DNA from: Eubacterium sp.
Lineage (GTDB): Bacteria > Bacillota > Clostridia > Lachnospirales > Lachnospiraceae
Direction of reading: 5' to 3'
NCBI GenBank assembly: GCA_017437905.1
Contig: JAFRWY010000117.1
Coordinates: 1 to 40,266 of the forward strand
Length of the DNA stretch: 40,266 nucleotides
Shown here piece after piece: positions 11,065 to 34,636 of this stretch. The translations under genes were made by a program, and so were the position numbers. Under the pieces are notes generated by a model. It had not been told where the DNA came from and ran no database searches. It saw only the letters and a program-made list of their open reading frames with translations. Every line of letters begins with the position of its first letter. Position 1 is the stretch's first letter.

Positions 11065-14000
11065 ATGCAGAACTACAAGAAGCGTTTATTAGCATATTCA
11101 CTGACTCTGGGCATGATTCTTCCGACGCTACCCACATTTGTGTCCCATGCGGCTGGAAGTATCAAAATCAGTGAGGATAACTTCCCGGATCCGGCGTTTC
11201 GCAGCGAGGTGGCGAAACAGTTTGATTCGGATGGGGATACTTTCCTGAGTGTGGAAGAGTGTGAAGCAGTGACCAGTATTGGAGTAGAATCCTGTAGCAT
11301 TAGCAGTGTTGATGGAATCGCTTTTTTCCCTAATCTGGAAACGCTTGACTGTAAGTATAACAATATAACTTCATTGGACATCAGTAAGAATCCTTCGCTG
11401 TTGTCTCTCTCTTGTGATTATAACAAACTGACGTCTTTGGATGTTAGTCAGAATCCGTTACTACAGGAACTGAGGTGTGGGAAAAATCAATTGACGGATT
11501 TAGATGTCAGTCATAATACAGAATTACAGGTTCTTTATTGTTATTATAATCCAATTAAAATGCTGGATTTGGAGAATCAGACAAAACTGGTGGATGTAAG
11601 TTGTGCAAATTGTCAGCTGACGGATTTGGATGTGAGTGGTCTTTCGGGTTTAAAAGAATTATACTGTGGATCAAATGAATTACAAAAACTTGACATTAGT
11701 CATAATACCGAGTTGGAAAAAATCAACTGTAGTGAATGTGGTCTAACGACACTTGATGTAAGCAATAATACGAAGCTGACGTGGTTGTGCTGTGAAAAAA
11801 ACAGTCTTGCCACCCTGGATGTGGGTGGTTGCGTCGCATTGGACTATTTACAATGCAATAACAACAATCTGGTTGAACTTGATTTGAGCAACAATACTAT
11901 ATTAACAGGACTGTACTGTTATGATAATCAAATCGAAAATCTGATCATCAATACACATAATGAGTATAATAGATCAGTTCACATTAATTGTTCGGGTAAT
12001 CGATTAAAGGACATTGATCTCTCAAATTGTTCAAATCTAATATCTTTATATTGTGCACAAAACCAGTTAACGGAACTTGATCTTTCTTCCCATGGAGGGA
12101 TCGTTAATTTTACTTGCAGTGATAATATGCTTACCGAATTAGATTTGAGTCATAACACACAGATTACAGGGATAAGCTGCTCAAATAATAATTTGACCAA
12201 TTTGATCATTGGGAATAATACCAAGGTGAGAATCCTTGAATGCCAGAATAATCAATTGACCAATCTAGATCTGACAAATAATACCGCGTTAGAAAGTATT
12301 CAATGTAATAATAATAACCTTGAAAAACTGAATCTTAGTTCAAATTCAAAACTAAAATCATTACATTGCGAATCAAATCAACTGGAAGAACTGGACTTGA
12401 GTCAGAATTCGGCATTAATGCAGCTCTATTGCAATGATAATAATCTGACAGAATTAGACTTAAGTAATAATCCAAAACTGTCATGGTTAATATGTGAAGA
12501 TAATCCATTGACATTTATGGATGTGCGAAATAATACACTGTATAAATCTTCTTTTGATCCTCGTACAATCGTCATCAAATCCGATGACGACCTTGGCTGG
12601 AACGCCGCGGATGATAAAACCTATTACATCGTGGATGATGGTGTTGAACCGAAGAAAAGTCATCCCGTTACAGGTGTAGTGGAGATCGATGGCGAGAAGC
12701 ATTATTTCAACTCCCAGGGTGTCCTCCAGACGGATATCGTTATTCCTTCGGATATCAAGGTCACGCCGTCCTCTGTGACGCTTACCTGTCTGGATACGGT
12801 GACTTTAACTGCGACTCCGACGCCGTCGGAAGTTGCAGGCGAAGACCTGATCTGGAAGTCGGATGATGAGTCAATCGTTATGGTGAGTCAGGATGGTGTC
12901 GTGACACCGGTTTCGGAGGGGTCGACCTTTGTTACCGTATCCTCCATATATGATCCGGCCATCATGTACATGGTTCCGGTCACGGTGAAACCGGTGATTT
13001 CGTTGGAAACCAGTGAAATCATGGTTCTTGCAGGCGGCGAAGCAGAGTGTAAGTATGCATTGAATACCGATAAGCTCCTTTTGATCAGACTGATCAGCGA
13101 GAATCCGGAGATCGTTTCGATCACTTCTGATAATCTGATCCAGGGTGAACGTGAAGGTGAGACGGATGTCATAATGCAAATCAATGATGCATATGATTAT
13201 GAGGTGACTTTCCGGATCCATGTGGTGGTGTCCGGCTCGGAGTCCATCAATACCAACATCCGCAGGATAGAGCTGTACCGGAATGGCACACTTGTCACGG
13301 AAGATGATGATATTTCAGGTATGCCGGGGGATCTTCTGGAGTTCTCTGCCAAGGTCTATGTGACCGGGGAAGAGGATGGATATGAATGCACATTTGACCA
13401 ACCGGTGATCCAGACAAACGAAGGAAGGATCCGTCTGATCTGGAAATCGACAAATCCGTCTGTAGTTACGATTAACCGTGGAAGTGTTACGGTAGAATCT
13501 GCCGGGATAGCATTTATTACTGCACAGGCCATGGGATCGACGGTCATGTCCGATGCGATCACTGTGTCTGCAAAGGCACGCCCAATCAATCTGCGAAGCG
13601 TGACAATTTCAGGCAATAAAACGATCGAGTAAAATGAGAGCTTCTACCTGAAAGCTACATGTGCGCCGATGAACGCCCATAATAAAACAGTGATTTGGGT
13701 TTCGGATGATCCTTCAATCGCATCCGTAAATGAACTCGGTAAGGTTACCGGTATTTCTGTGGGAACGACTATGATCCATCTGATCTCGGATGAAAATCCG
13801 GAGATTACGGATGAAGTTAAGATTGAAGTAAAGCCCATATCGGTTAAGAATATCAGGGTGGAGTCCGGTGCTGCTGAGGAAGGGTCCGTCGGAAGCACAT
13901 TTGTAGATGCACAGGAGATTTCGGAAGACGGGGTTCTCACATTGAAGCATCATTTGGATGAAGAACTATTCCTTCGGACCGTCGTAAATGCAGATGCGGC

Positions 14001-14870
14001 GAATAAGCAGGTTGGCCTTGAAATATATGACGAAGATGATATCGACATTGATGTGATTGATGTGACCGACGAGTTTGAAGATTCGACGGAAGCAAACCGT
14101 GTGTACCTGATCGAACTCCCGGATATCGGTGAGTATTCGGTTTATTGTAAAGCGCTGGATGGAAACGGTGCTTCCAAATCAAATCCTTCACGATCCGCAT
14201 GATCCCGTATGACGAGTGGTATGAGGATGATGAAGGTGCTGTCTATCATTATACACTCGACCAGATGAATGTTGGCTGGACCACCATTTCCGGGCAGAAA
14301 TACTACTTCGATGAAGAAGGTATCCTGCAGACCGGATGGCAGCAGATCGCCGGAAAGTGGTACTATCTCGGAGAAGATGGCGTCCTTTGCGCCGGATGGA
14401 AGAAGATCGGTAAGTGGTACTATTTCGGAACCGACGGTATCATGGCCACCGGCTGGAAGAAGCTTAGTGGAAAATGGTATTACTTTGGCGCAAATGGGTT
14501 CCTCCGCACCGGATGGCAGAAGGTGGGTAAATCCTGGTATTACTTTGGAACCGATGGTGTGATGCGTACCGGTTGGCAGAAGGTCGGACAGACATGGTAT
14601 TACTTCGGAACCGATGGCATCATGGTAACCGGCTGGAAGAAGCTCGGAAAGGTCTGGTACTATTTCAAAGGCGGTGCAATGGTAACCGGCTGGCAGAAGA
14701 TCGGAAATGCATGGTACTTCTTCAAAGACGGTGCCATGAAGACCGGCTGGCTGAAATCCGGCGGGAAGTGGTATTACTTCAATGCTGACGGTGTGATGAC
14801 AACCGGAAGCCGGAAGATCGGCGCGAAGACATATCAGTTCAGCAGCTCAGGCGTGTGTCTGAATCCGTGA
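11065..14870 (+). pseudogene. Broken LRR / Ig-like / wall-binding surface protein
   Basis: A full-length paralog of its neighbours split by two lesions. The ATG at 11065 follows AAGGAGA and opens a signal peptide (MQNYKKRLLAYSLTL..., cleavage near SHA-AGS), an EF-hand-like loop (DSDGDTFLSVEE) and about 19 LRRs, the most of any copy here. Ig-like domains follow. An in-frame TAA at 13630-13632 sits where paralogs have Ile or Met (PIEIGQSIYLK against TIE-stop-NESFYLK), and the same frame continues past it. At 14176-14185 AAATC is duplicated; removing one copy restores GASKSFTIRMIPYDEW, matching the paralog GAKKTFTVNVAYYDEW residue for residue. The ten wall-binding repeats and GVCLNP end lie after the frameshift. 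If the first part is still made it would be secreted without its wall anchor. Confidence 0.88.
14176..14185 (+). repeat. AAATC x2 tandem duplication causing a frameshift
   Basis: The local sequence is TCC-AAATC-AAATC-CTTCACG. With one AAATC removed the codons read S-K-S-F-T and the downstream frame joins the upstream one with no gap relative to paralogs. The insertion of five bases is therefore the simplest explanation of the break. Confidence 0.85.
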
Positions 14871-20620: not shown

Positions 20621-21238
20621 ATGGTGAATCCCGGTGAGAATAAAGACGTTGCGCTGAATTGCGATGTGACTATTATCAGAATCTGTGAAGAGGGTATGGC
20701 TCCGCGAAGCTATGTTTTGGAAAACTTCGGGAAGTCTACGGTCACGATCGGGCGAAGTGATGATTGTGATATTCTCTTGAGCAAAGACAGAATCTCGAGA
20801 AGACATGGGAAGTTTTTCAGAGATGGAAATAACGAACACTGGTGTTATCAGGATCTGCTCAGCAAGAACGGATCATTTATTGATAACAAACGTGTGGAAT
20901 ATCATGTGATCACGAATAATGTTTGTATCAGGTTACCCGGGAATTGTACCGTAACGATCTCCCTGCATCCAAATAGAGAGAATTATAAGGTTGTTCCGGG
21001 CCCGGTGCCCGGAGGTGACTACGCTGAGATATACACCGGAAGCGGGATGACGATTATTACTGTTTTTACTGCTGATGGGACCAGAGTAAATGAAATATTC
21101 AGTCCTCATCCTAATCCGGAACTTGAGGAAGACCCTCCACCGTTTGCTAATTTATATGGCTGTCCCAATGCAGGGAGAATGGGGAATTCTCAATTGAGAA
21201 AACAGATTGATATCATTGATTATGATGAAACTGATTAA
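20621..21238 (+). CDS. FHA-domain protein
   Basis: 205 residues. The FHA domain, a reader of phosphothreonine, spans about residues 28-115 with all key parts: TIGRSDDCDI (Gly-Arg), ISRRHGKFF (Ser and His) and LLSKNGSFID (Asn-Gly). The remaining 80 or so residues are unrecognised: a proline-rich turn (PGPVPGGDY), a short beta-rich part, and an acidic end (IDIIDYDETD). No signal peptide or membrane segment is seen, so it is predicted cytoplasmic. It ends 23 bases before the kinase at 21262 and is probably co-transcribed with it, which makes it a natural candidate substrate reader or partner for that kinase. It is the only one of the four FHA proteins here without a Q/G/Y-rich linker or membrane anchor. 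Confidence 0.9.
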   Translation: MVNPGENKDVALNCDVTIIRICEEGMAPRSYVLENFGKSTVTIGRSDDCDILLSKDRISRRHGKFFRDGNNEHWCYQDLLSKNGSFIDNKRVEYHVITNNVCIRLPGNCTVTISLHPNRENYKVVPGPVPGGDYAEIYTGSGMTIITVFTADGTRVNEIFSPHPNPELEEDPPPFANLYGCPNAGRMGNSQLRKQIDIIDYDETD

Positions 21239-21261
21239 CAAATACTTGTGTGAGGGGAAAG

Positions 21262-23787
21262 ATGGAAAATAACGTTGAAATCAGTATCGGATTGCCGATT
21301 GGTCTGATTCTGAACAATCGTTACAGGATCGATGCCATCCTGGCCATGGGTGGCTTCGGCATCACTTACCGGGCGTGGGATTGTACGCTTGAGAAGAAAG
21401 TAGCGATCAAGGAATTTTATCCGAACGGACTTGTAACGCGGACGGAAGAGAAGCTGGTTTCCGTATATGTGACGGAAAATGAAGATCAGTTTGAACACGG
21501 GAAGACGCGGTTTCTGCGAGAGGCGAGGGATGTGTCGCGCTTCTCGAACAACCCGAATATCGTCACAGTATTTGATTTCTTTGAAGCAAATGGGACCGCT
21601 TATATCGTCATGGAATTCCTGGAAGGAATGACCCTGAAGCAGTATATCGACCGGAGTGGCGGACGTATTGATGAATCCATGGCCATCAACGTGATCTTTG
21701 CACTCATGACCACACTGGAGACGGTTCATAATGAAGGGGTCGTTCACAGAGACATTGCTCCGGATAATATCTTTGTGTGCAATGATAAGAGGATCAAACT
21801 GATTGATTTCGGTGCGGCCAGGGAGACGACGGATATGTCTCAGAATTCCTCCTCCGTGATCCTGAAACACGGTTATGCACCGGTGGAGCAATATTCGAGG
21901 CACGGAAATATCGGACCGTGGACGGATGTGTACGCATTTGGTGCTCTGATCTACTATATGATGACAGGGGTGCGTCCTCTCGATTCCGTGGACCGGATGA
22001 TCGATGACAGTTTGGAACCGCCCAGTCATCTGAACCCTTCCATTCCGTATGCCATGGATGTGGTGACGATGAAAGCACTCAAAGTCAATGCGAAGGATCG
22101 TTATCAGAATATGGGGGAGATGCGTGCGGATTACCTTCGCCTGTCGCAGGGGCAGAACACACAGACCGCCCCGGGGGATCAGCAGCAGATTCGGACGGAA
22201 GCTTCGGATAAGAAGACTGCCGTAGACAGAACGAAAACGCCGGGCAACGGTGGAAAGGGAGAGAAGAAGCAGGCAGCACCATCGAAGAGCCGTAAATGGA
22301 TTCCGATCGCAGGGATCGCAGGGGTGCTTGTGGCAGCCGGAATCCTGTGTCTGGTATTTCTCGGAAAGAAAGATGGGTCTACGGACCCGGGATCATCGGA
22401 ATCATCAACGATGGTGGGTACGGAGAATCCCTCTGAGGGAACTGCTGATACGAACACCGGAGAATTAACGGAACAACCGACGGATAAGGCCACGGAAGCA
22501 CCCGTCGGGCAGAGTTATGCGGAACAGCACGGCGTGAAGGCTCCGGATCCTTCTTCCTGGACAGATGAAGATTCTATCTGCATTTACTGTTGGGATGACA
22601 GCCTCGAGAGTGAGATCAAGGAGTTTAAGGAGCGTTTTCCGCAGTACAAGGATTATATCGAATATGTAAAACTAGGGATCAGCAGTACCCAGATGTCTTC
22701 GTCTATAAGTGACGTCCTGAAAAATCAGGAGAATGGGAAGTATCCTTCTGTCTTTTGTCTCGGAGCGGGTGGTGACGCCCTTGGCTGGATCCACAGCGAT
22801 CCGGCAGAACTGTATAATCTGTACGATCTCGGATTTACGGATGATACACTGTCCAATTGTTATTCGGCAGATGTGGATTATGGTCGTTCCGGAGATCAGT
22901 TATATGCACTTCCCGTATATTCTTCCATAGGAACGGTTGTCTATAACCGGAGGATCGCACAGGAAGTGTTCGGAACGGATGATCCGGATCAGGTACAGGA
23001 ACTGGTGAAGGACTGGGATTCCTATCTGAATACGGCAGCCCGGCTGAAAGAGAAGGGTTATATGATCAATTCTTCGCTGGAGGAGATCAATTATCCGATC
23101 CTGCATTCCAGAACCGCAGCCTGGGTGACGGAAGATGCGGAAGGACACCCGGTATTTCAGGCGGATGACAGTATCCGGACTTATCTGTCTATCACAAAAA
23201 CACTGTATGATTCCGGTTATACACATGATACGAAATTCAGATCAACGGAATGGACTGCGGATACGAAGCCGGGTGCAAATGTGTTTATGTATTTCATTCA
23301 TCCGTCCAATCTGAAAAATATGCGGAAAAACGGAATGGGTAAAGGTGAGTGGGGTGTGATCCGCGGACCGGAGGATTTCTTCTGGGGAGAGAAGTTTCTG
23401 GTGATCGGTAAAGATACACCGAATCCGGAACTGGCTGCTTTTTTGGTATGCGAACTAGTCTGTGATCCGGAACTGGCGCTGGCCCTTGTGAATACGAATA
23501 ATAAACCGGTGAATAACAGGGAAGCCATGGATCAGTTGGCGAATGATTACCTGGGATCCAAGAATGATCTGGTTCTGTTCCTGAACAATCAGAATCCGTA
23601 TCCGGTCTGGAAACAGTCGGAAGAGAATCTGAAGTTGTATCCGACTAGCCTGTATGATTCCGATATCTGGGCGCTTCTCAGGCAATACGGCAGATCTTAT
23701 TACGAAGGAGACCTGAAGAACGCGTCGCTGGATGAAGTTGTTGCAGCGATGGAACAGGAAGTAAATCAGATAATTCAGGAGCCATAG
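21262..23787 (+). CDS. Transmembrane Ser/Thr kinase with extracellular solute-binding-protein-like domain
   Basis: 841 residues; ATG at 21262 follows GAGGGG (an in-frame GTG at 21250 has no better site). The kinase domain covers about residues 14-285: glycine loop around G30-G33, catalytic lysine K50 (VAIKEF), HRD aspartate D164 (VHRDIAPDN), DFG aspartate D182 and a YAPVEQY segment, all consistent with an active PknB-like kinase. A basic linker leads to one membrane segment near 346-368 and a T/E/P-rich stalk. From about 434 to the end the protein resembles ABC-transporter extracellular solute-binding proteins (family 1, sugar type), for example PSVFCLGAGGD, YALPVYSSIGTVVYNRR and a C-terminal helical part. 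Usual PknB-type kinases carry PASTA repeats outside; none occur here. Inferred: ligand-sensing receptor kinase. No cognate permease or phosphatase is in the window. Confidence 0.9.
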   Translation: MENNVEISIGLPIGLILNNRYRIDAILAMGGFGITYRAWDCTLEKKVAIKEFYPNGLVTRTEEKLVSVYVTENEDQFEHGKTRFLREARDVSRFSNNPNIVTVFDFFEANGTAYIVMEFLEGMTLKQYIDRSGGRIDESMAINVIFALMTTLETVHNEGVVHRDIAPDNIFVCNDKRIKLIDFGAARETTDMSQNSSSVILKHGYAPVEQYSRHGNIGPWTDVYAFGALIYYMMTGVRPLDSVDRMIDDSLEPPSHLNPSIPYAMDVVTMKALKVNAKDRYQNMGEMRADYLRLSQGQNTQTAPGDQQQIRTEASDKKTAVDRTKTPGNGGKGEKKQAAPSKSRKWIPIAGIAGVLVAAGILCLVFLGKKDGSTDPGSSESSTMVGTENPSEGTADTNTGELTEQPTDKATEAPVGQSYAEQHGVKAPDPSSWTDEDSICIYCWDDSLESEIKEFKERFPQYKDYIEYVKLGISSTQMSSSISDVLKNQENGKYPSVFCLGAGGDALGWIHSDPAELYNLYDLGFTDDTLSNCYSADVDYGRSGDQLYALPVYSSIGTVVYNRRIAQEVFGTDDPDQVQELVKDWDSYLNTAARLKEKGYMINSSLEEINYPILHSRTAAWVTEDAEGHPVFQADDSIRTYLSITKTLYDSGYTHDTKFRSTEWTADTKPGANVFMYFIHPSNLKNMRKNGMGKGEWGVIRGPEDFFWGEKFLVIGKDTPNPELAAFLVCELVCDPELALALVNTNNKPVNNREAMDQLANDYLGSKNDLVLFLNNQNPYPVWKQSEENLKLYPTSLYDSDIWALLRQYGRSYYEGDLKNASLDEVVAAMEQEVNQIIQEP

Positions 23788-23789
23788 AT

Positions 23790-24530
23790 ATGAAATGTAT
23801 TCATTGTCAGAGAGAGAAAAATCCGGGCATTCCCGTATGCCCCTGGTGCGGATATAATCATGCCCGGACGGTAGCAGTGGTGGGAGATTCCATCAGCACA
23901 TTTCAGGGATATAATCCGAAGGGATACTCTGTATATTATACTCCGTCTGTTCTGAAGCAGAATAACATGAGGAGTGTTAAGGATACCTGGTGGAGCATTT
24001 TTCTTGAGGCGACAGGTGCATATCTCTTCACGAATAATTCTTACTCCGGAAGCAAGGTCTCCGGAGGACGATTTCCGGCGGTGGGGAGCGAAGAACGGCT
24101 CAGAGCCCTCGGCACGGAGGTTCAGCATCCGGATATCATCCTTGTGTATGCAGGCTGCAATGATTGGGGTTACGGTGTGCCGTTGAATCAGTTTGAGGGT
24201 TCGTACCGCCTCATGCTTATGCGGATGAAGGAACTCTATCCGAAGTCACGGATCATTTGCGGGACCCTGATGCGAACGTATCTGATGAAGAACCCTGCCT
24301 GGGGATTCCCGGAGAATATGTCCGGGTATTCATTCTCGCAGTACAATGACTCCATCATCCGTTGCTGTAAGTCGGCCGGCGTGGATTGCGCGGATCTGGC
24401 GGCTTCGGGCGAACGATACGAAACACTGGATGGTTCGCATCCCACAGCGCTTGGCCATGAGCAGATCGCAAATGCGTGGATCCGGTGCTATGAGAAGCTG
24501 GAGCAGAAGCGAAGTCGGGCAGGTACATGA
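23790..24530 (+). CDS. Zinc-ribbon SGNH/GDSL-type hydrolase
   Basis: 246 residues, starting two bases after the kinase stop with AGGAG inside the kinase end, so translation is probably coupled. The N-terminus is a four-cysteine zinc ribbon (C3, C6, C17, C20; NPGIPVCPWCGY), almost the same as that of the protein at 25630. The rest is an SGNH hydrolase: block I GDSIS with S34, the SYSGS glycine block, block III GCND with N124, and DGSHPT with D214 and H217. These form the expected esterase/lipase-type active site. No signal peptide or membrane segment is present, so it is predicted cytoplasmic, which is odd for a family often acting on exported glycans or lipids. The substrate is unknown. Operon position suggests a link with the kinase. 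Confidence 0.9.
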   Translation: MKCIHCQREKNPGIPVCPWCGYNHARTVAVVGDSISTFQGYNPKGYSVYYTPSVLKQNNMRSVKDTWWSIFLEATGAYLFTNNSYSGSKVSGGRFPAVGSEERLRALGTEVQHPDIILVYAGCNDWGYGVPLNQFEGSYRLMLMRMKELYPKSRIICGTLMRTYLMKNPAWGFPENMSGYSFSQYNDSIIRCCKSAGVDCADLAASGERYETLDGSHPTALGHEQIANAWIRCYEKLEQKRSRAGT

Positions 24531-25510: not shown

Positions 25511-25629
25511 TCCGGGATGTAGAGAACTGGTAGTGTCAGAAGGAATAACTGTGGAGCTTACCCCGGACTTGAGACCGTATCATCAGAATAGCAGGTTGTC
25601 TGGAATGAATGATAGTGAGGAGTGCCAAG

Positions 25630-26766
25630 ATGAGATGTAACCGATGCAATCGTGAGATTAATCCGGGAATACCAATATGTCAGTGGTGTGGATATGATAA
25701 TTCGGTACCGAACATGCAGGGGAATTCGCAGCAGAATTATCAGCAGAATTGGCAACAGGGGAACCCGCAGTACAATTGGCAGCAGGATCGTCCGCAGGGG
25801 AACATGCAGCAGAATTGGCAGCAGAGCAATCCCCAGAGGAATCCACAGCAGAATTGGCAACAGAATCGTCCACAGGGAAATCCGCAGTGGAATTCACAGC
25901 CGACGAATCAGGATCCGGGTCCGGGAAAGCCGGAAAACCAAGGCTCCGGGAAGTTGGGTGCAGATCGCGGAAACAGGAAAAAGATCCTGGCAATCTGTAT
26001 CATAGGCGGTGTGGTTCTGGTGGTGCTGGTGGTGTCGCTGATCATACTGTTTACAATTAAAACGGAGAAGGAACCGGACAAAACAACGGAAAAAGGTTCG
26101 GAATGGACGATGACTTCTCAAACAGACCGTACGGAATCGACGGAATTGATCACTACCGAGTTCGATACGGAATCCGGGAATACGGAAACCCATACTTCTT
26201 CTACGGAATCGGATATAACGGGAAATAATGCCCCCATAGAGGAACAGGTAAAGGACAAAGTACCGAAAAACGGTTTTTCCGATGGGACGGTGAATGCTGT
26301 CACATATGATGATTACATTTTTGATATTCCCGCTTATATGGGCAATCAGGTGGAATCGAATAAGACATTAACCTACTATCCCGAACTCGGAAGCAATAAT
26401 GACAGTGATCTGATCGTGGTATGTCTGACCATTTCAAAAACAGAACAGATACCGAAGGATGCGGTATATCATATGGAGGAACTCTGGGAAGCGGCAGACA
26501 GTACATTGTATAACACATATTTAAAAAGCGGAGCAACGAATATTGTAAAACTCGGAAAAGAGGATCTGACGATAAACGGCATGCCCGGACACCGGTGTGA
26601 TATTTCCTTTGAACTGATGGGCATTTCCGTACTTCTTCGGGCATATTCGTTCTATGATGCATCTCTGGACAAGGTGATCATGATTGCTTTTCAGGAGTCA
26701 TTGTCCTCCTATTACACGTATTTTTCGGATTTTGAGAAGATCGTCATGAGTTGCAGAAAGTTTTGA
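25630..26766 (+). CDS. Zinc-ribbon, Q/N-rich, single-pass membrane protein with extracellular domain
   Basis: 378 residues from the ATG at 25630, placed after GAGGAG; an in-frame ATG at 25609 lacks a ribosome binding site and would bury the zinc ribbon. Order: zinc ribbon (C3, C6, C17, C20; NPGIPICQWCGY, matching the hydrolase at 23790); a Q/N/W/P-rich low-complexity stretch about 30-100 (QQNWQQGNPQYNWQQ); a basic patch then one membrane helix near 117-143; a T/E/S-rich stalk to about 205; and an outer beta-rich domain of about 150 residues (YDDYIFDIPAYMG, MPGHRCDISFEL) that vaguely recalls PsbP-like lipoprotein folds. The ribbon and low-complexity part should be inside. Function unknown. It precedes a likely promoter region and is probably transcribed separately from the FHA operon. 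Confidence 0.85.
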   Translation: MRCNRCNREINPGIPICQWCGYDNSVPNMQGNSQQNYQQNWQQGNPQYNWQQDRPQGNMQQNWQQSNPQRNPQQNWQQNRPQGNPQWNSQPTNQDPGPGKPENQGSGKLGADRGNRKKILAICIIGGVVLVVLVVSLIILFTIKTEKEPDKTTEKGSEWTMTSQTDRTESTELITTEFDTESGNTETHTSSTESDITGNNAPIEEQVKDKVPKNGFSDGTVNAVTYDDYIFDIPAYMGNQVESNKTLTYYPELGSNNDSDLIVVCLTISKTEQIPKDAVYHMEELWEAADSTLYNTYLKSGATNIVKLGKEDLTINGMPGHRCDISFELMGISVLLRAYSFYDASLDKVIMIAFQESLSSYYTYFSDFEKIVMSCRKF

Positions 26767-26871: not shown

Positions 26872-26894
26872 AATCAATGGGAGAGGGGAAAGGT

Positions 26895-28169
26895 ATGAGG
26901 AAAACGAAGATACTGGTTTCAGATAACGGCAGACATGCCGAGTATGTACTGGATGATTTCGGAAAGGAACTGATTTCGATCGGTCGTGACAGGAGAAATG
27001 ACATCGTCCTCACGAATCCGAAATGCTCCGGAAACCATGGCCGGTTCTTTAAGAGTCAGGGCTGGTGGTGTTATCAGGATATGAACAGCACAAATGGTTC
27101 ATCCATGGATGGATCGGAAGTGACTTCAACGTATATTCAGAACGGAAACAGGGTTTTCTTTGAACGTAGTCCGATGCAGGATTCTTCCTGGTTTGACGTT
27201 GTTGTCGAAGATGTGGCGGTTCAAAGCAATCCGCAGCCGGCGCAGGGTTATGACCAGCCGCAGAGCTACGGTCAGGCAGTTCAAAACCGTCAGGCACCGG
27301 GGACTTCTCAGGGTTACGGCCAGCATGCACAGGGTTCGGTGCAGGGGTATGGACAGCAGGCACAGAATTATAGCCAGGCAGCGCAGGGGTATAATCAGCA
27401 GCAGAACTACGGTCAGGTTCCCCAGAACCGTCAGGCACTGGGAGCTTCTCAGGGTTACGGCCAGTCTGCACAGGGGCCGGCACAGGCTTACGGCCAGCAG
27501 GCACAAAACTTCGGTCAGGCGGCGCAGGCGTTTAACCGGCAGGTTCAGGGAGTTCAACAGCCGGGAGCAGGTCGCCCGGCACAAAGTGCTCCGGTAAGAA
27601 AAAGCACGGCTGCCGCGAGCAGCAAGAACGGACCGGGTAACTGGAGGGAATATGCGAATCGTTCCGGTTATGAGATGAAGTGGTTTTACTTCCTGGTTTA
27701 TTTTCTGATCTTTGCGTATGCTGCATGGCGGATTTTTGATGCAGTGATGATGTTTACCGGAAAACATTTCTATGTGGACTATTCGAAGATGTCCGGTAAT
27801 GGGTACCGGATGTATGCCAATTATTTCCACGCAGCCGGAAATACGAATATTACACAGGAGATCTATGCGATGGCACCGGCCATGAAGACCTTTGATATCA
27901 TTCACGGGGTTTTCCTCTTTGTTCTTGCGGCAATGTCCGTTTGTACAAGATTTCTGCTGACCGGTTTCAAGAAGATCGGACCGATCCTTTTCTATTCGGT
28001 CATGGTGGCTGATCTTTTGTTTGTAGTTGTGGATTTCTTCGCTATGCAGTCTATACTTTCCGGTATAGCTACATTTGGATTCAATATCTATGGAATCACG
28101 GTACCGGGGTCAATGATCCTTGCGAATGCACTATATATCAGCAAGAGAAAAGACCTGTTTATCTACTAA
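26895..28169 (+). CDS. FHA-domain membrane protein with Q/G/Y-rich low-complexity linker
   Basis: 424 residues. ATG at 26895 (MRKTKILVSD) follows GAGGGGAAAGG; the ATG at 26877 would overlap that site. The FHA domain is at about 5-105, with ISIGRDRRNDI, CSGNHGRFF and NSTNGSSMDG carrying the phosphothreonine-reading residues. Residues about 112-232 are a low-complexity run of QGYGQ, QNYGQ and QAAQ units, much like the aromatic prion-like domains of FUS-type proteins. About four membrane segments follow (roughly 262-284, 335-355, 363-385, 393-412). The FHA and linker parts are predicted cytoplasmic. Its N-terminal 100 residues are a tandem paralog of the protein at 29826. First gene of a four-gene operon. 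Inferred role: membrane-tethered phospho-reader or scaffold. Confidence 0.88.
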   Translation: MRKTKILVSDNGRHAEYVLDDFGKELISIGRDRRNDIVLTNPKCSGNHGRFFKSQGWWCYQDMNSTNGSSMDGSEVTSTYIQNGNRVFFERSPMQDSSWFDVVVEDVAVQSNPQPAQGYDQPQSYGQAVQNRQAPGTSQGYGQHAQGSVQGYGQQAQNYSQAAQGYNQQQNYGQVPQNRQALGASQGYGQSAQGPAQAYGQQAQNFGQAAQAFNRQVQGVQQPGAGRPAQSAPVRKSTAAASSKNGPGNWREYANRSGYEMKWFYFLVYFLIFAYAAWRIFDAVMMFTGKHFYVDYSKMSGNGYRMYANYFHAAGNTNITQEIYAMAPAMKTFDIIHGVFLFVLAAMSVCTRFLLTGFKKIGPILFYSVMVADLLFVVVDFFAMQSILSGIATFGFNIYGITVPGSMILANALYISKRKDLFIY

Positions 28170-28196
28170 GTAACTGACGGAACGGAGGAGCAGGGT

Positions 28197-29717
28197 GTGG
28201 ATGCAATAAAGGCCGCTGAGGCAATCAGAAAATATAAAGAATTGCTGGATATGGGCGCGATCACTGCAGAGGAATTTGAGGAACGCAAGCGGCAGTTTCT
28301 GTCCTCCACCGGGGAAAATGGCGGAGAGTCGAAGCCTTCACCGAAGAGTGAAACGAAGCCTGCTGACGCTGCTTCTTTGGATTGGAGATGCGGTAAATGC
28401 GGAGCCGTGAATATCGGAGCGGTAAAATGTTGTAAGAACTGCGGCGGTATTCAGCAGATTGTCGGTTTCGAACTGGTAGGAGCTTCTTCGAAGGCTTTGG
28501 GAGCAAACGGAGCAAGGACGTCGAACGGAATGAATGGCGGGAATGCATCCGGTCCCAAGCGATATACGAATATTCCGGGGCAGCAGAACCGGTTCGTCCG
28601 TCAGGGAGTAAACGGCCCGCAAGGACCATACAACCAGCAGGGACAGTTTAACCAACAGGGAAGATATGGCCAGCAGGGGCCCTATAACCAGATGGGACCT
28701 TACGGTCAGATGGGAATGAACGGCCAGCAGGGACCGTATGGTCGTGGGATCAACGGCCAGAATGGAATGTATAATCAGATGGCTCCCGGCGGCCAGCAGG
28801 GGATGTATAACCAGATGGGTCCGGGGGGCCAGCAGGGGCCATATAACCGGATGGGAGTAAATGGTCAGCAGGGACCGTACAACCGGATGGGTGCCGGCGT
28901 CCAGCAGGGACCCTATAACCAGATGGACCCGGGTGGACAGTACGGACCGTATGGAGTGCCGGGAATGAATAGCCCGCAGGGACCATACAATCAGAGGGTG
29001 AATGGTCCGTCCGGTTCATATGGGGCACAGGGCATGAATGCTCAGCAGGAACAGCAGGCTCCGCCGGAGGAGGAAGAGCATTCAGGACTCCGGGGACTGT
29101 TTGATACTTCGGATGCAGCAGGGCAGAAGAACGGATCCGGTCAGCCGGAAGGTCAGAGTGAACGGAGTCAGTCAGGCCGTCAGGGAGAGAAAAAACTGTC
29201 CGTACAGGAAAGTGAACAGAGTCAGTCAGAGCAGGATGAGTACTCTGAAGAGGATGATCACGCAGGACTTCGGGGACTGTTTGATCCGGAACCCTCGGAG
29301 CAGCCGGCACAGTCAAAACCATCGGAGCAATCCGGTCAATCGGGTAGATCCGGTCAATCGGGTAGATCCGGTCAATCGGGTCAATCGGGCCAATCCGGCC
29401 GGATGGATCAGCCGGGTGAATCCGGTCAGTCGGGTGAATCCGGTCAGTCCGGCCAATCGGGGGAATCGGTCAAGTCCGGTCAGTCCGGCTCACCGAGTCA
29501 GCAGTACACACCGCATACGGACGAGAACGGCACGGTTTACTTTACCGACAGTGAAGGAAATGCATTCTATGTAGATGAAAAGGGAGTCCCATTCTACTAT
29601 AACCAGAATGGATATCCGTATTATCTGGATGATAACGGAACACCCTATTATCATGATGTAAACGGTGTACTTGTGTATTTTGATGAGGAAGGCAATCCGT
29701 ATTATCCGGAGAATTAA
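28197..29717 (+). CDS. SHOCT / zinc-finger protein with long disordered region and YY-rich repeat tail
   Basis: 506 residues, GTG start at 28197 six bases after GGAGGAG. Residues 1-37 are a SHOCT-like helix pair (RKYKELLDMGAITAEEFEER). A RanBP2-like zinc finger follows (C65, C68, C79, C82). Residues about 130-280 repeat QQGPYNQMG units. The acidic motif HSGLRGLFD / HAGLRGLFD occurs twice (nt 29080-29112 and 29260-29292). A Q/S/G-rich run (SGQSGRSGQSG) precedes a tail of seven nine-residue DxxGxPYYx repeats. There is no signal peptide or membrane segment, so it is probably cytoplasmic. SHOCT, finger and tail match the C-terminal half of the protein at 3608-5095. It starts 27 bases after the FHA gene. 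Inferred: adaptor or scaffold; function unknown. Confidence 0.85.
   Translation: MDAIKAAEAIRKYKELLDMGAITAEEFEERKRQFLSSTGENGGESKPSPKSETKPADAASLDWRCGKCGAVNIGAVKCCKNCGGIQQIVGFELVGASSKALGANGARTSNGMNGGNASGPKRYTNIPGQQNRFVRQGVNGPQGPYNQQGQFNQQGRYGQQGPYNQMGPYGQMGMNGQQGPYGRGINGQNGMYNQMAPGGQQGMYNQMGPGGQQGPYNRMGVNGQQGPYNRMGAGVQQGPYNQMDPGGQYGPYGVPGMNSPQGPYNQRVNGPSGSYGAQGMNAQQEQQAPPEEEEHSGLRGLFDTSDAAGQKNGSGQPEGQSERSQSGRQGEKKLSVQESEQSQSEQDEYSEEDDHAGLRGLFDPEPSEQPAQSKPSEQSGQSGRSGQSGRSGQSGQSGQSGRMDQPGESGQSGESGQSGQSGESVKSGQSGSPSQQYTPHTDENGTVYFTDSEGNAFYVDEKGVPFYYNQNGYPYYLDDNGTPYYHDVNGVLVYFDEEGNPYYPEN
29331..29480 (+). repeat. Short tandem repeats coding for SGQ-rich run
   Basis: The 18-bp unit TCCGGTCAATCGGGTAGA occurs at 29331-29348 and 29349-29366, followed by degenerate 9- and 18-bp variants. 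They encode QSGRSGQSG-type repeats. Such repeats can change length by slippage in multiples of three without breaking the frame. Confidence 0.85.
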
Positions 29718-29825
29718 GTGATGATGTGATCGTAACGGATGTTGATCATGACATCGGATTCCGGCAGGGAATATGCTGACAGAGGATCATTCCGGCGGGA
29801 GTATCGGAGTAAGAGGGGAGAGAAT

Positions 29826-30638
29826 ATGAGCAAAACAAAGGTCTGCTTCTCGGATAGCGGACGAAAAATGGAGTTTGTCCTGGATGACTTCGGAAAGGAC
29901 ACCGTGGTGGTCGGAAGAAGCACCGGATGTGATATCCGTCTTGTGAATCCGAAGGTCTCATCCAGTCACGGCTGTTTCTATAAGAATCAGGGGCAGTGGT
30001 GTTATCAGGACATGAAGAGTACGAATGGTTCTTCCATGAACGGAACCCCCATCACATCGATCACGGTTCGTGACGGAGACAAGATCTTCCTTGAGAGTAC
30101 ACCGAAGGAGAACAGTACATTCTTTCAGGTGATCCAGTCCGCAGGGGCGGCGGCAGCATATGCTGGCGATGCATATGGCCAGCAACCATATCAGCAATCT
30201 TACGGGGCACAATCCTATCAGACACCGGTCGCTCAGCCATACCAGGCACCGGTTCAGCCCTATCAGGCGCCGGTACAGCCGGCTTATTACGCAGCACAGC
30301 CGGTTTATGTGGCACCGGTGAGCCCGTATCCGATATATGCATTACAGCCGAAACCACCGGTATCCGCATTGGCAGTGATATCCATGATCTTCGGAATACT
30401 TGCATTCATGGCATCAATCATTTTGTTGTGGATCTTCTTTTTCTACAATATTACGGTTCCGTTGATCATCGGCATTACGGCACTGGTAGCCGTGATTCTG
30501 GCGATTCCTGCCATGGCAGGACGTAAAGGCGGAAAGGGTATGGCTATCGCGGGTCTGGTACTGGGAATCCTGACGATCATCCGTCTGGTTATTTACTGGA
30601 TTACCTATTCGGCTCTTATTTCCTATTACTGGTGGTAA
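29826..30638 (+). CDS. FHA-domain membrane protein with Y/Q/P-rich linker and DUF4190-like end
   Basis: 270 residues. ATG at 29826 (MSKTKVCFSD) follows AGAGGGGAGAG; the longer frame from 29739 adds residues with no ribosome site. The FHA domain at about 5-105 has VVVGRSTGCDI, VSSSHGCFY and KSTNGSSMNG. Residues about 113-173 are a Y/Q/P/A-rich low-complexity linker (PYQAPVQPYQAPVQPAYY). Three membrane segments follow (about 180-208, 212-232, 245-266); the G-K-G-M-A-I-A-G-L-V-L-G-I turn resembles DUF4190 membrane proteins. The N-terminal 100 residues are a close paralog of the protein at 26895. The FHA part should be cytoplasmic. Third gene of the operon. Inferred role: membrane-tethered phosphothreonine reader. 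Confidence 0.87.
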   Translation: MSKTKVCFSDSGRKMEFVLDDFGKDTVVVGRSTGCDIRLVNPKVSSSHGCFYKNQGQWCYQDMKSTNGSSMNGTPITSITVRDGDKIFLESTPKENSTFFQVIQSAGAAAAYAGDAYGQQPYQQSYGAQSYQTPVAQPYQAPVQPYQAPVQPAYYAAQPVYVAPVSPYPIYALQPKPPVSALAVISMIFGILAFMASIILLWIFFFYNITVPLIIGITALVAVILAIPAMAGRKGGKGMAIAGLVLGILTIIRLVIYWITYSALISYYWW

Positions 30639-30681
30639 GATCAGGGCGAAATCATTTGTTACGACGTAAAAGGGGACAACT

Positions 30682-32652
30682 ATGGCAGATACTACGATCA
30701 GGATCCGAAACGGATCTTTGGTTCAATCCTATAATCTGGGGAGTTTTGGAAAAAACAGTGTAATAATCGGTAGAAATCCGGATTCGGATATTGTGATCAA
30801 CAATCCCAGGGTATCCGGTCACCACGGGTGTTTCTACCTGCAAAACGGTGTCTGGTGCTATCAGGACATGCAGAGCACCAACGGATCTTCAATCAACGGA
30901 AGGCCGGTCTCGACGACACAGCTTGGTAACGGAACGGTTCTGGTGATGGACAGAAACGGTGCGTCTGAAGCTCCTGTGATCCAGGTGGCGATCGGTGCTG
31001 CATCCCAGGGTTCTTACGGTGCCGGTGGATACGGGACTACAGGTGCAGCGGGTGCATACGGAGCAGCCGGTGCAAGGCAGGGATCGTATGGTTCTGCAGG
31101 TTCCGGACAGGGAGCCTACGGTTCCGGAGACTCCGGCGCAAGACCCACTTCATTTGGTGCGGCATGGGCAGGTGAAAGCGGCAACTCTTCCGGAGCATCG
31201 AACGGTTACCAGGGGAGACCCTATGCACCGAAAGCCTCTTCCGGAGCATCGAAGCCCGCTGCTCCGCCACCAAAGAAGAAGAGCAACGCCCCGCTAATAG
31301 CAACACTGGCTTCGCTGGGGGGAATCCTTCTGGTAGTGGTTCTTCTGTTTGCGTTCGGCGTGTTCGGAGGAAGCAAGGACACCGACAGACCTAAGGGATC
31401 TTCGTCAGAGGTGAGTACGGATACCGGCTGGATAAAGGAGCCGACTACCCGGACCACGGAGAATAAAACGGAGCAGCCCACGACGGAGGAACCAACCACG
31501 GGATCCGATGAACCGAAGGAACTGGAATCGGAGGTCATCTATCAGCAGGCAAGTCAGTCAACCGTTGAGGTACAGGCAACAAACGGCGGATATGGTTCCA
31601 TAGGTACCGGTTTCTTTGATGATGAAAAAGGGACTGTGATCACCAACTATCATGTGATCGACGGTATGACGGCCGGCTATATTCTGACCGTTGATGAAAA
31701 AAAGTATGATATAACCGCTGTTCTCGGATATGATCCGGACATGGATATCGCCATCCTGAAAACAGAAATCAGCAGCAGTATTCCTCTGAAGCGGCGGACG
31801 GGCAAGGTGGTTACCGGCGAAAAGGTATATGCCCTCGGAAGTTCCCAGGGCTATGACGGTACATTTACCGAAGGAATCGTATCCACAGCGGAAAGAAATG
31901 AAGGAGGACATGTATATATCCAGCATTCCGCGCCGATCACCAACGGCAACAGCGGCGGCCCGCTTCTGGATAAATACGGACAGGTGGTCGGAATCAACAA
32001 CTGGATGCGTACGGACGGACAGAATCTGAACTTCGCCATCCCGATCGATCAGGTGGATCTGGTTCCCCGCGGCAGCACCCAGTCCATGACGGACGTATAT
32101 ACGAAGGAGTACGGCGGTATCGGATCATCCGGCTCGGATATCGAGATCATGAAGAACGGTTCCACGGTAACACTTGGATCTTCGGGAGGGAAGTCGCTTA
32201 CGGTTGATGTGCCGGCGGAATCCATGACGACTTCAAACGGCGAAGCGAAGGTCATGACATACATGCATGGAAGAAATGGTGTCGTTATCTCCGGCGGTGT
32301 GGAATCCAACCCCTATGGAGGTTCCATCGAGGATAATTCCGAGACGATCATAGAATATATGACAAAGGCGCTGGATGAAATGGGCCAGCAGTACGGCGTT
32401 GAATTCTCGGAGATCGAAACGGAAGTTCTTATGATCAACGGAACATACTGGACGGTATATACAACCTATGGTATGGTCAGCAGCGGAGACCTTGCAGGTT
32501 ATTTGATGGACTTTTCCTTCTATATATGTGAGAAGGACGGAGTTTATGCCATGGCGTCTATCGTTACCATGGTCATTGATACAGATTATGACGAATGGGA
32601 ATATATCTATGAGGCTGAACAGGGAGCGATTTCCTCGCTTAAGTTTAAATAA
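30682..32652 (+). CDS. FHA - transmembrane - HtrA/trypsin-like serine protease fusion
   Basis: 656 residues, ATG after AAAGGGG. FHA at about 5-100 (VIIGRNPDSDI, VSGHHGCFY, QSTNGSSING). Residues about 110-193 are a G/S/Y/A-rich linker (GSYGAGGYGTTGAAGAYG). A basic PPPKKKS patch precedes one membrane helix near 204-226, so the FHA part is inside and the rest outside. After a T/E/P-rich stalk comes a chymotrypsin-fold protease: H324 (TNYHVIDG), D355 (DMDIAIL) and S424 (NGNSGGPLL) form the triad, as in DegP/HtrA. No PDZ domain follows; instead there is a C-terminal domain of about 180 residues I do not recognise, with conserved-looking aromatic strands. Last gene of the operon, followed by a terminator. 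Inferred: surface protease whose position or activity is set by phosphorylation inside the cell. Confidence 0.92.
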   Translation: MADTTIRIRNGSLVQSYNLGSFGKNSVIIGRNPDSDIVINNPRVSGHHGCFYLQNGVWCYQDMQSTNGSSINGRPVSTTQLGNGTVLVMDRNGASEAPVIQVAIGAASQGSYGAGGYGTTGAAGAYGAAGARQGSYGSAGSGQGAYGSGDSGARPTSFGAAWAGESGNSSGASNGYQGRPYAPKASSGASKPAAPPPKKKSNAPLIATLASLGGILLVVVLLFAFGVFGGSKDTDRPKGSSSEVSTDTGWIKEPTTRTTENKTEQPTTEEPTTGSDEPKELESEVIYQQASQSTVEVQATNGGYGSIGTGFFDDEKGTVITNYHVIDGMTAGYILTVDEKKYDITAVLGYDPDMDIAILKTEISSSIPLKRRTGKVVTGEKVYALGSSQGYDGTFTEGIVSTAERNEGGHVYIQHSAPITNGNSGGPLLDKYGQVVGINNWMRTDGQNLNFAIPIDQVDLVPRGSTQSMTDVYTKEYGGIGSSGSDIEIMKNGSTVTLGSSGGKSLTVDVPAESMTTSNGEAKVMTYMHGRNGVVISGGVESNPYGGSIEDNSETIIEYMTKALDEMGQQYGVEFSEIETEVLMINGTYWTVYTTYGMVSSGDLAGYLMDFSFYICEKDGVYAMASIVTMVIDTDYDEWEYIYEAEQGAISSLKFK

Positions 32653-32670
32653 ATAAATCGGTCTGAAATC

Positions 32671-32719
32671 AGGATGCCCGGATGCGTGCGAAAACACGTC
32701 ATTTGCGGCATCCTTTTTT
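32671..32719 (+). terminator. Rho-independent terminator of the FHA operon
   Basis: AGGATGCC (32671-32678) pairs with GGCATCCT (32707-32714), with an inner GCGTG/CACGT hairpin (around 32684-32699), then a run of six T (32714-32719). It lies just after the FHA-protease stop codon. The following 155 bases to the next gene hold no gene; I see no convincing promoter there, although one is expected. Confidence 0.85.
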
Positions 32720-32874
32720 GTATGGAAGAATTGATTTGGATCGGTAGGAATTCCATTTATACGGATCATAAGTATTACAAGTATCATGTTAAATATGACA
32801 AAGCGGATATATCTGTCAGGGAATACTGTAGAATAAAGCTATCATAAGAATTCCCGGAAAGGAGACGGATCAAT

Positions 32875-33603
32875 ATGAAGAAGAAAACCGGACTTATAGT
32901 TTTGACGCTTATGCTGGCAGTCAGTGCGACAGCCTGTGGATCAAAAAAAGGAACGAAGAATGCTTTCGCGGATAAGATGACTGTAGCTGAAGGAAAAACG
33001 GAGCAGGAGGAGGAACCTGTCGGTAGGAACCCTTTCGTCCGGTTTAGGGAAGATGATACGGAGGAGCCGGAGTACCCATGGAAGGATTCCAAAGAGCCGA
33101 AAACGGAGGAACCTGCAACCGAAGAACCGCCGACGGAAGCTCCGGTGGATCGTTTCCCGGGAAGGTCAAATGCAGATACCGGTGAGGGAACTCCTAAGAT
33201 TCTGCAGGTAGGCGATGTGGCACCTGATTTTACGATCGATCTGAAAGACGGCAGAACCTTCCGTCTGTCCGATTTTGATGATGAAGTGATCCTCATCAAT
33301 TTCTGGGCAACCTGGTGCGGCCCATGTGTAGGAGAGATGCCGGCATTTGAGCAGCTTCAGCAGGAAGGCTACAATATTCTCTGTATTAACTGCGGTGATA
33401 ATTCCTTTACAACGAATCAGTTCGCTGATCAGAACGAGTATTCATTTATGGTCGGCTGTGATGAGGACTACAGGATCATAACGTATTATCCGACGGACTA
33501 TATCCCCTACACGGTGGTTGTTGATCATGGCGTGATCGCAAAGCTGTACACCGGAGCCAATGATTACAGTGAGTACAAGTCGGCACTGGATTCGTGTTAT
33601 TAA
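32875..33603 (+). CDS. TlpA-like thioredoxin-fold lipoprotein
   Basis: 242 residues, ATG after AAAGGAGA. The N-terminus is a lipoprotein signal with a plausible lipobox ending at C21 (SATACGSKK). Residues about 35-100 form an E/T/P-rich stalk (KTEEPATEEPPTEAPVD). Residues about 103-242 are a thioredoxin-like redoxin domain: VGDVAPDFTIDL, then INFWATWCGPC with the active-site pair C148 and C151, and the cis-proline region IPYTVVV. TlpA/ResA-type proteins reduce disulfides outside the membrane. It heads an operon with the small CXXC protein (11 bases on) and the NapH-like ferredoxin, which could bring electrons across the membrane to it. The start of a new transcript is expected here because a terminator lies upstream. 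Confidence 0.92.
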   Translation: MKKKTGLIVLTLMLAVSATACGSKKGTKNAFADKMTVAEGKTEQEEEPVGRNPFVRFREDDTEEPEYPWKDSKEPKTEEPATEEPPTEAPVDRFPGRSNADTGEGTPKILQVGDVAPDFTIDLKDGRTFRLSDFDDEVILINFWATWCGPCVGEMPAFEQLQQEGYNILCINCGDNSFTTNQFADQNEYSFMVGCDEDYRIITYYPTDYIPYTVVVDHGVIAKLYTGANDYSEYKSALDSCY

Positions 33604-33766: not shown

Positions 33767-34636
33767 ATGAAGAAAGACAAAGTGAAGCATAAGAGAATAC
33801 CGAAGAGACACTTTGTTCAGCTGATCACTGCAGTGTTATATAATTGCAATTTCATGGGATTTGCCGCTGGGAAGATCTATAAAGGAAATATGAAAGGGGT
33901 ATGCGTTCCGGGGCTGAATTGTTATTCATGTCCCGGAGCGATTGCGTCCTGCCCTCTGGGAAGTCTCCAAAGCGGACTGCTTTCATCCCGATATCGGTTT
34001 CCGTATTATATTCTCGGAACCCTGATCCTGTTCGGGCTGCTGCTGGGGCGTTTTATCTGCGGATTCCTTTGTCCCTTTGGCTTCCTTCAGGATCTTCTCC
34101 ATAAGATCCCTACGCCGAAGCTGCGGAAGAACCGTGTGACGCGCGTCCTTTCCTATCTGAAATATGTGATCCTGGTTCTCTTTGTGGTTTTGATACCGCT
34201 CATTAAACTTGTTCCCGGGTTCTGCAAGTATATCTGTCCCGCAGGTACTCTGGAAGCGGGAATTCCCCTTGTGTTTAAAAATGAGATATTACAGGGACTG
34301 ATCGGATTCCTTTTCTCCTGGAAGGTTTATTTCCTGGTGCTCCTGCTGGTTCTATGTATCTTCTGTTACCGCGCGTTCTGCAGATTCCTGTGTCCGCTGG
34401 GCGCCCTTTACTCGCTGTTTAATCCCGTGTCCTTCTTCGGGATCAAGGTAGATCCTGAAAAATGCACACATTGTAATGCCTGTGTCCGTATGTGTGAAAT
34501 GGATGTGAAGAAGGTCTGTGACCGCGAATGCATCCAGTGCGGAAAATGCCGGCACGTATGTCCGGAAGGAGCGATCCATTTCGGAATCCATAATAAAACA
34601 AAGAAAAAGAAAGAAATATCGGAGGTGGAAAAATGA
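33767..34636 (+). CDS. NapH/YccM-like membrane 4Fe-4S ferredoxin protein
   Basis: 289 residues from the ATG at 33767; the alternative at 33743 overlaps the end of the small CXXC gene and lacks a ribosome site. It has about five membrane segments and cysteine motifs of the NapH/YccM type: NCYSCPGAIASCPLG, ICGFLCPFGFLQDLL, CKYICPAG and CRFLCPLGALYSLF. The C-terminal ferredoxin domain has CTHCNACVRMCEMD and CIQCGKCRHVCPEG, enough for two 4Fe-4S clusters. Family members move electrons across the membrane. With the TlpA-like lipoprotein and small CXXC protein it probably forms an extracytoplasmic thiol-reducing pathway. Its stop overlaps the ATG of the next gene (ATGA), so the downstream DUF4139 gene is translationally coupled. 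Confidence 0.9.
   Translation: MKKDKVKHKRIPKRHFVQLITAVLYNCNFMGFAAGKIYKGNMKGVCVPGLNCYSCPGAIASCPLGSLQSGLLSSRYRFPYYILGTLILFGLLLGRFICGFLCPFGFLQDLLHKIPTPKLRKNRVTRVLSYLKYVILVLFVVLIPLIKLVPGFCKYICPAGTLEAGIPLVFKNEILQGLIGFLFSWKVYFLVLLLVLCIFCYRAFCRFLCPLGALYSLFNPVSFFGIKVDPEKCTHCNACVRMCEMDVKKVCDRECIQCGKCRHVCPEGAIHFGIHNKTKKKKEISEVEK

Follow-up and report, generated by a model that had tools for sequence, protein, structure and literature searches.

A putative phosphothreonine signalling locus with aromatic linkers between FHA domains and the membrane in a Eubacterium sp. of the Lachnospiraceae

Introduction

Do the low-complexity linkers that join FHA domains to membrane segments in a Eubacterium sp. belong to a phosphothreonine signalling system, and are they more than spacers? 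We addressed this question in one entire contig of 40,266 bases (G000:C59, hereafter the window) from a host genome of 3.09 Mb. At positions 26877-32652 four plus-strand genes follow each other in close succession with intergenic gaps of 21-43 bp. They encode, in this order, an FHA-linker-polytopic protein (FHA1), a SHOCT/low-complexity protein, a second FHA-linker-polytopic protein (FHA2) and a protein in which FHA domain and linker are followed by a transmembrane (TM) segment and an S1C (HtrA-like) protease (FHA3). Upstream of this group, on the same strand, lies the gene of a membrane kinase whose ectodomain is solute-binding-like. We consider it probable that these genes specify a membrane-based module of phosphothreonine signalling, in which a kinase works with FHA effectors on disordered tethers that perhaps cluster.

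Results

The four FHA domains of the window scored 46.9, 52.7, 59.0 and 55.2 bits, above the Pfam cut-off of 20.7. In FHA domains, the residues GR, SxxH and NG contact phosphothreonine, and the conserved GR, SxxH and STNG are all present in FHA1-3. Judged by these residues, FHA1-3 probably read phosphothreonine marks. The usual Asn is absent from 4/20 profile rows, all four from the same genome, in which STYG or SKCG replaces STNG (L011:15140, L011:5131, L012:10496 and L018:5064; contigs C114 and C18). AlphaFold modelled the FHA domains with block means of the predicted local distance difference test (pLDDT) of 90-97 in FHA1 and 70-91 in FHA3; the model of the FHA1 membrane part was poor (28-62). 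An earlier note on this DNA, made from the sequence alone, had described three genes that join a canonical FHA domain to a low-complexity linker and membrane segments, as well as a fourth, SHOCT/zinc-finger gene with a QQGPYNQMG run, and both descriptions agree with the Pfam matches, the FHA residues and, by eye, zinc-finger-like cysteines in the SHOCT protein. Its inventory was correct for these four genes but incomplete, since it did not mention that the last one encodes an FHA-TM-protease protein (Trypsin_2, 4.4e-25) and lacked a further FHA protein at 20621-21238 and a low-complexity/TM protein at 25609-26766.

The stretch from the FHA domain to the first TM segment comprises 159 amino acids (aa) in FHA1, 81 in FHA2 and 98 in FHA3. 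Aromatic residues (Y/F/W) account for 11, 15 and 9% of the three linkers, Q/N for 30, 16 and 7%, and charged residues for 8, 2 and 10%, respectively. Prion-like domains are marked by Q/N-rich, low-charge disordered segments. The Q/G/Y linker types proposed earlier are aromatic and of low complexity, but only the FHA1 linker is clearly Q/N-rich. In both proteins modelled by AlphaFold (FHA1 and FHA3) the linker pLDDT was about 30, and these two linkers are predicted to be disordered, as had been supposed. Aromatic residues were spaced more evenly than random in FHA1 (residues 113-232, p = 0.0047; p = 0.67 over the whole untrimmed linker), FHA2 (p = 0.003) and FHA3 (p = 0.012), partly because of tandem repeats. 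Aromatic low-complexity segments, by our own definition with thresholds fixed after viewing the sequences, were found in 6/22 open reading frames (ORFs) of the window, compared with 4/245 in a 298-kb sample of the host genome (Fisher, 2.7e-5). As a separate observation, a 420-aa protein outside the FHA islands (L169:8358-9620, contig C55) carries a 117-residue GAYPGSTAGGYG-type segment.

Tandem repeats occur in the linkers of FHA1 and FHA2 and in the SHOCT protein. The two copies of the 141-bp repeat of FHA1, which was detected at the DNA level, differ by 17 changes at 35 synonymous sites and 18 at 127 non-synonymous sites, which corresponds to proportions of non-synonymous (pN) and synonymous (pS) differences of 0.14 and 0.49 (Fisher, 4e-5). 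Moreover, all six aromatic columns of this repeat are aromatic in both copies (4 Y/Y, 2 Y/F). The FHA1 linker repeats are under purifying selection. Repeats of the SHOCT protein gave a pN of 0.15 and a pS of 0.70 with 4/4 aromatic columns kept, and at least these two sets of repeats look unlike freely drifting ones. Among the eight repeat proteins compared, pN was below pS at p < 0.01 in seven, although the lag was picked on amino-acid identity, which biases pN downwards.

How the linkers behave beyond this genome was analysed in 56 distinct FHA-linker-TM proteins from 19 genomes, after exclusion of proteins with an FHA domain starting at or beyond residue 60, an E value above 1e-15 or a duplicate FHA sequence; five FHA-ABC and three TM-less proteins stand outside this set. 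Composition in this set was computed without the final six residues of each linker. The median aromatic content was 10.9% in polytopic proteins (n=24), 7.5% in protease proteins (n=7) and 3.8% in proteins with a single TM segment and an ectodomain (n=25), with 11.8, 9.3 and 22.0% charged residues. Linker composition thus goes with the protein class, while the linker sequence is not conserved. With a threshold of our own for an aromatic/low-charge linker (at least 5% aromatic, at most 18% charged), 20/24 polytopic, 5/7 protease and 4/25 single-TM/ectodomain linkers passed, and 4/24, 2/7 and 21/25 fell below it. Polytopic and protease proteins together differed from ectodomain proteins (25/31 versus 4/25, Fisher 2e-6), also when the own genome was left aside (21/26 versus 2/23, 4e-7), with the limit that shared ancestry among the proteins makes these p-values overstate independence. 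Some failures were narrow or just aromatic-poor (L018:5064, L268, L080:11616), others were plain charged spacers, and in two proteins (L080:8188, L084:9710) Q-rich tracts were nearly free of aromatic residues. The earlier note had named non-aromatic spacers in homologues as evidence against its idea; most polytopic and protease homologues keep the aromatic type, but most single-TM/ectodomain proteins and all those of two islands do not.

The relatives of the FHA genes are largely confined to the genus. A profile of 20 N-terminal-type FHA domains matched, at 1e-20 or better, 18/61 genomes of the genus and 3/397 genomes of the family sample, two of the latter from the same genus. In a phylum sample of 398 genomes it matched 78 at 1e-13; below 1e-20 the own genome alone was found. 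A scan of named genomes returned 50 loci, of which the top five belonged to Lachnospiraceae or Eubacterium metagenome-assembled genomes and the remainder were weaker and scattered. Thirteen islands, corresponding to the 14 longer loci among 31 collected, contained a kinase in 12 cases and a PP2C phosphatase in ten; the co-occurrence with a kinase in other genomes, on which the earlier idea depended, was therefore found. Neither enzyme was present in the L090 island, and PP2C was absent from the window and the L018 island. Of 20 background stretches from the host genome, 298 kb in total, one gave a kinase match (C30). Genome-wide there are 16 FHA domains, 14 matches to kinases, of which 13 exceed the cut-off, and four to PP2C; none of the PP2C genes is on the window contig. 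A fuller paralogous island lies on contig C114 (L011, L012) of this genome, where several kinases and two PP2C genes accompany zinc-ribbon FHA adaptors and FHA proteins with Q/G/Y repeats and a TM segment. One C114 kinase appears by eye to have PASTA-like repeats.

Candidate phosphorylation sites came from these other islands. A motif of the form acidic/Asn/Gln-T-[VIKR]-x-hydrophobic was present in 11/11 island PP2C proteins with a long N-terminus, among them L080:6574-7392, L012:8933-9778 and L256:5540-6370, and in 0/6 short ones. A stricter form was located N-terminal to the FHA region in 11/21 zinc-ribbon adaptors, and shuffled sequences gave means of 1.2 and 1.4 with maxima of 6 and 6 for the two sets. 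As the motif was defined from the same sequences in which it was counted, we treat it as a lead. The other island ORFs showed no excess (125 versus 109 in shuffles). In the window, the zinc-ribbon gene at 34633 has one such site, VETVNI; the remaining matches lie mostly in leucine-rich repeat (LRR)/Ig-like proteins, where they are uninformative. No such motif precedes the FHA domain in FHA1-3, in which the FHA domain starts each protein, and the two matches to the pattern that FHA2 and FHA3 contain lie within the FHA domain itself. By analogy with GarA/OdhI, FHA domains could recognise the threonine motifs of the PP2C N-termini and adaptors as their marks, and from the sequences an FHA ligand on the PP2C phosphatase itself is possible.

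In the protease part of FHA3, H324, D355 and S424 were invariant in 6/6 aligned rows, and we take these residues to be the catalytic triad. A PDZ domain is present in many, though not all, S1C/HtrA members; the Pfam scan of FHA3 found none at E values up to 0.01. FHA3 thus shares the S1C protease fold and triad residues with DegS/HtrA and differs in its N-terminal FHA domain and the lack of a PDZ match. The best Foldseek match of FHA3 was the S1C-NTF2 part of RsgI9 from Clostridium thermocellum (PDB 7sjy), with a low whole-chain TM-score of 0.24 by query. The two are alike in that a single TM segment connects a cytoplasmic signalling part with an S1C-type domain outside the cell, to which a C-terminal domain is added; the cytoplasmic part of RsgI9 is an anti-sigma domain, whereas that of FHA3 is an FHA domain with an aromatic linker. 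This match suggests that a Clostridium already has a protein of this design, with an S1C ectodomain connected through the membrane to a signalling domain in the cytoplasm. A family search with whole FHA3 matched 17/250 genomes, mostly via the protease part, and the S1C part is more widely spread than the FHA3 architecture.

Discussion

For the module that we favour, we infer phosphothreonine binding, the kinase-substrate relation, the topology and clustering as follows. The membrane Ser/Thr kinase would sense through its extracellular binding-type domain and phosphorylate cytoplasmic threonine motifs, and the FHA domains of FHA1-3 would bind these marks and thereby recruit or gather membrane effectors, namely the polytopic proteins and an S1C protease that lacks a PDZ domain and faces outwards. 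Phosphatases would act from other parts of the genome; contig C114 carries two of its four PP2C genes. The linkers, aromatic, low in charge and about 80-160 aa long, would serve as disordered tethers under selection for composition; they probably form weak multivalent contacts, through which phosphorylated partners would gather the proteins into membrane patches. Clustering via aromatic linkers is a plausible hypothesis.

Several results weigh against this reading, besides the biases named above for the repeat comparison and the linker-class statistics. Neither a phosphatase nor a zinc-ribbon FHA adaptor is encoded in the window, and it is other islands and C114 that supply the motif evidence. 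The linkers of FHA1-3 contain 1, 1 and 3 Thr and are therefore hardly phosphorylation targets themselves. Linker sequences could not be aligned across homologues. Aromatic columns were kept in only 3/5 cases in the FHA2 repeats, 2/3 in FHA3, 3/5 in the 25609 protein and 2/5 in L018. Two islands, G264 (L086, 4/4) and SIG296 (L112, 3/3), have charged spacers only, which means that aromatic linkers are favoured, not obligatory. Moreover, in ten of the 17 family genomes matched with FHA3 (L041-L050) the stretch analysed around an S1C homologue contained no FHA protein, so the link to FHA is not general to that protease.

The linkers might instead be plain flexible spacers that arose by repeat slippage, with incidental aromatic residues and no clustering, a reading that we regard as possible rather than probable. 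The tandem repeats in FHA1, FHA2 and the SHOCT protein fit such an origin, as do the many homologues with charged spacers, the two with nearly aromatic-free Q-rich tracts and the FHA2 repeats, for which purifying selection was not significant (p = 0.14). Slippage is harder to reconcile with a composition that tracks protein class across 19 genomes, and with repeats in which pN is well below pS and, in FHA1 and the SHOCT protein, every aromatic column is kept. At the other extreme stands the full proposal of the earlier note, in which aromatic linkers would make all these proteins, the SHOCT and zinc-ribbon low-complexity proteins included, condense together under the control of phosphorylation. 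The share of window ORFs with aromatic low-complexity segments, the even aromatic spacing and the precedent of Rv1747 in excerpts of PMC9312465 are in its favour, but the linker type is not kept in every island, FHA3 is not Q/N-rich and FHA2 is so moderately, and we find this version doubtful. Likewise unlikely in our opinion is a writer/eraser/reader system, for the most part limited to the genus, whose kinase activity would collect a surface protease and partner proteins in reversible condensates at the membrane; polytopic and protease-type FHA effectors would carry aromatic linkers maintained by selection on composition, and the SHOCT/zinc-ribbon partners would use the same sticker grammar.

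We consider it very improbable that the island belongs to a secretion or defence system instead of serving general signalling. FHA domains occur in EssC-type systems, and a separate contig of the genome (C82) resembles a type VII locus by eye; against this, the ten window proteins scanned with Pfam include no secretion component (the islands were not searched for one), and the NCBIfam T6/T7-linked FHA models and the MAD6 defence kinase scored far below the cut-off. We set aside a secretion system on these sub-threshold NCBIfam matches, and a defence system on the weak MAD6-kinase match, the PADLOC library not having been searched. A vWA conflict system was also set aside; island L080 has a vWA-TM-FHA gene, but the excerpts of PMC7159879 cover other architectures.

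The signalling module favoured here has relatives among described systems, and the earlier statement that no such system is known was too strong. According to the review PMC9312465, the FHA-linker-FHA part of Mycobacterium tuberculosis Rv1747 phase-separates, more readily if phosphorylated by PknF and reversibly with PstP, and the protein forms membrane nanoclusters. The likeness lies in a membrane protein whose cytoplasmic part has FHA and a disordered linker, together with kinase and PP2C partners. Rv1747 has two FHA domains and an ABC transporter, whereas FHA1-3 have one FHA domain and no ABC domain in Pfam, an aromatic linker between FHA domain and TM segment, and polytopic or protease outputs. 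Genes of the FHA-FHA-ABC plan were found in five of the 31 loci (FHA profile plus ABC signature, with Pfam confirmation in one). Phosphorylation-driven FHA clustering is already known; what differs here are the aromatic linker between FHA domain and membrane, the outputs and the lineage. As the Rv1747 clusters have been described, the condensate idea would be a variant and not a new principle.

FHA switches of the GarA/OdhI type have a Thr motif in an extension N-terminal to the FHA domain. The Thr-rich acidic stretch before the FHA region in zinc-ribbon adaptors of the other islands and C114 resembles such a switch. These adaptors differ in their N-terminal zinc ribbon, and FHA1-3 are membrane proteins that begin at the FHA domain. 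A term search in the main text of two bacterial prion surveys (PMC4606120, PMC6400439) found FHA unmentioned, and a search of open-licence literature with few word combinations found no work on such a Lachnospiraceae FHA signalling system. If clustering is true, kinase-controlled membrane condensates would exist in a low-GC Gram-positive bacterium outside mycobacteria, and homologues of sister species with and without aromatic linkers would be natural controls. Even without clustering, these Lachnospiraceae loci look like compact kinase/phosphatase/FHA signalling islands that have an HtrA-type output and contain candidate phospho-motifs.

Features of the window

The coordinates are given in Table 1; TM segments were assigned there by hydropathy scanning and not by a trained predictor.

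Table 1. Genes and domains of the FHA locus
Feature	Position	Strand	Evidence
FHA0, FHA protein without TM segment	20621..21238	+	Pfam FHA 9.5e-15; hydropathy scan TM-negative
Membrane Ser/Thr kinase, solute-binding-like ectodomain	21250..23787	+	Pkinase 5.9e-34; SBP_bac_8 7.7e-10; TM aa 353-371
GDSL hydrolase, N-terminal zinc-ribbon-like cysteines (by eye)	23790..24530	+	Lipase_GDSL_2 5.5e-16
Zinc-ribbon-like N-terminus, Q/N/W low-complexity segment aa 22-106, TM aa 129-147, C-terminal part	25609..26766	+	39-bp tandem repeat
FHA1: FHA, QGYGQ linker, polytopic membrane domain	26877..28169	+	Pfam FHA E 3.9e-12
FHA domain of FHA1	26898..27212	+	pLDDT block means 90-97
Aromatic linker of FHA1, predicted disordered	27213..27605	+	141-bp repeat at 27240-27542; predicted disorder
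SHOCT protein	28197..29717	+	SHOCT E 1.7e-8; QGPYNQMG repeats within 28500-29090; SGQ collagen-like run
FHA2: FHA, PYQAPVQ linker, DUF4190-like TM part (below cut-off)	29739..30638	+	Pfam FHA E 5.9e-14
FHA domain of FHA2	29829..30143	+	
PYQAPVQ linker of FHA2	30144..30386	+	
FHA3: FHA, GSYG linker, TM, protease and C-terminal domains	30682..32652	+	Pfam FHA E 6.2e-16
FHA domain of FHA3	30685..30999	+	
GSYG linker of FHA3	31000..31293	+	
TM segment of FHA3	31294..31350	+	
S1C/HtrA-like protease domain of FHA3, then C-terminal alpha/beta domain	31603..31995	+	Trypsin_2 4.4e-25

The kinase translation contains HRD and DFG motifs, and FHA1 has a second candidate ATG start at 26895, the one used in the earlier note. 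Promoter-like matches in the window were at chance level (20 versus 19); terminator-like matches were above it (23 versus 11.6), with none on the plus strand at 32652-32875. In the SHOCT protein at 28197-29717 we noted by eye a zinc-ribbon-like CxxC motif and C-terminal Y/D/G repeats; the hydropathy scan found no TM segment and the Pfam scan no FHA domain. This protein and a second SHOCT protein at 3608-5095 each end, by eye, in about seven Y/D/G-rich repeats of about ten residues of the YxDxxGxPY type, for which Pfam gave no match. A GDSL hydrolase gene stands beside FHA genes in three islands, at 23790-24530 in the window, L040:12733-13413 and L088:9097-9834, and the homologues of the latter two (G160 and G251 islands) share 36-37% identity with the window gene. 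Finally, an LRR/Ig-like/cell-wall-binding gene at 11065-14870, which resembles the genes next to it, is broken into three ORFs in different frames (11065-13632, 13669-14202 and 14199-14870), which reflects either a broken copy or a sequencing error.

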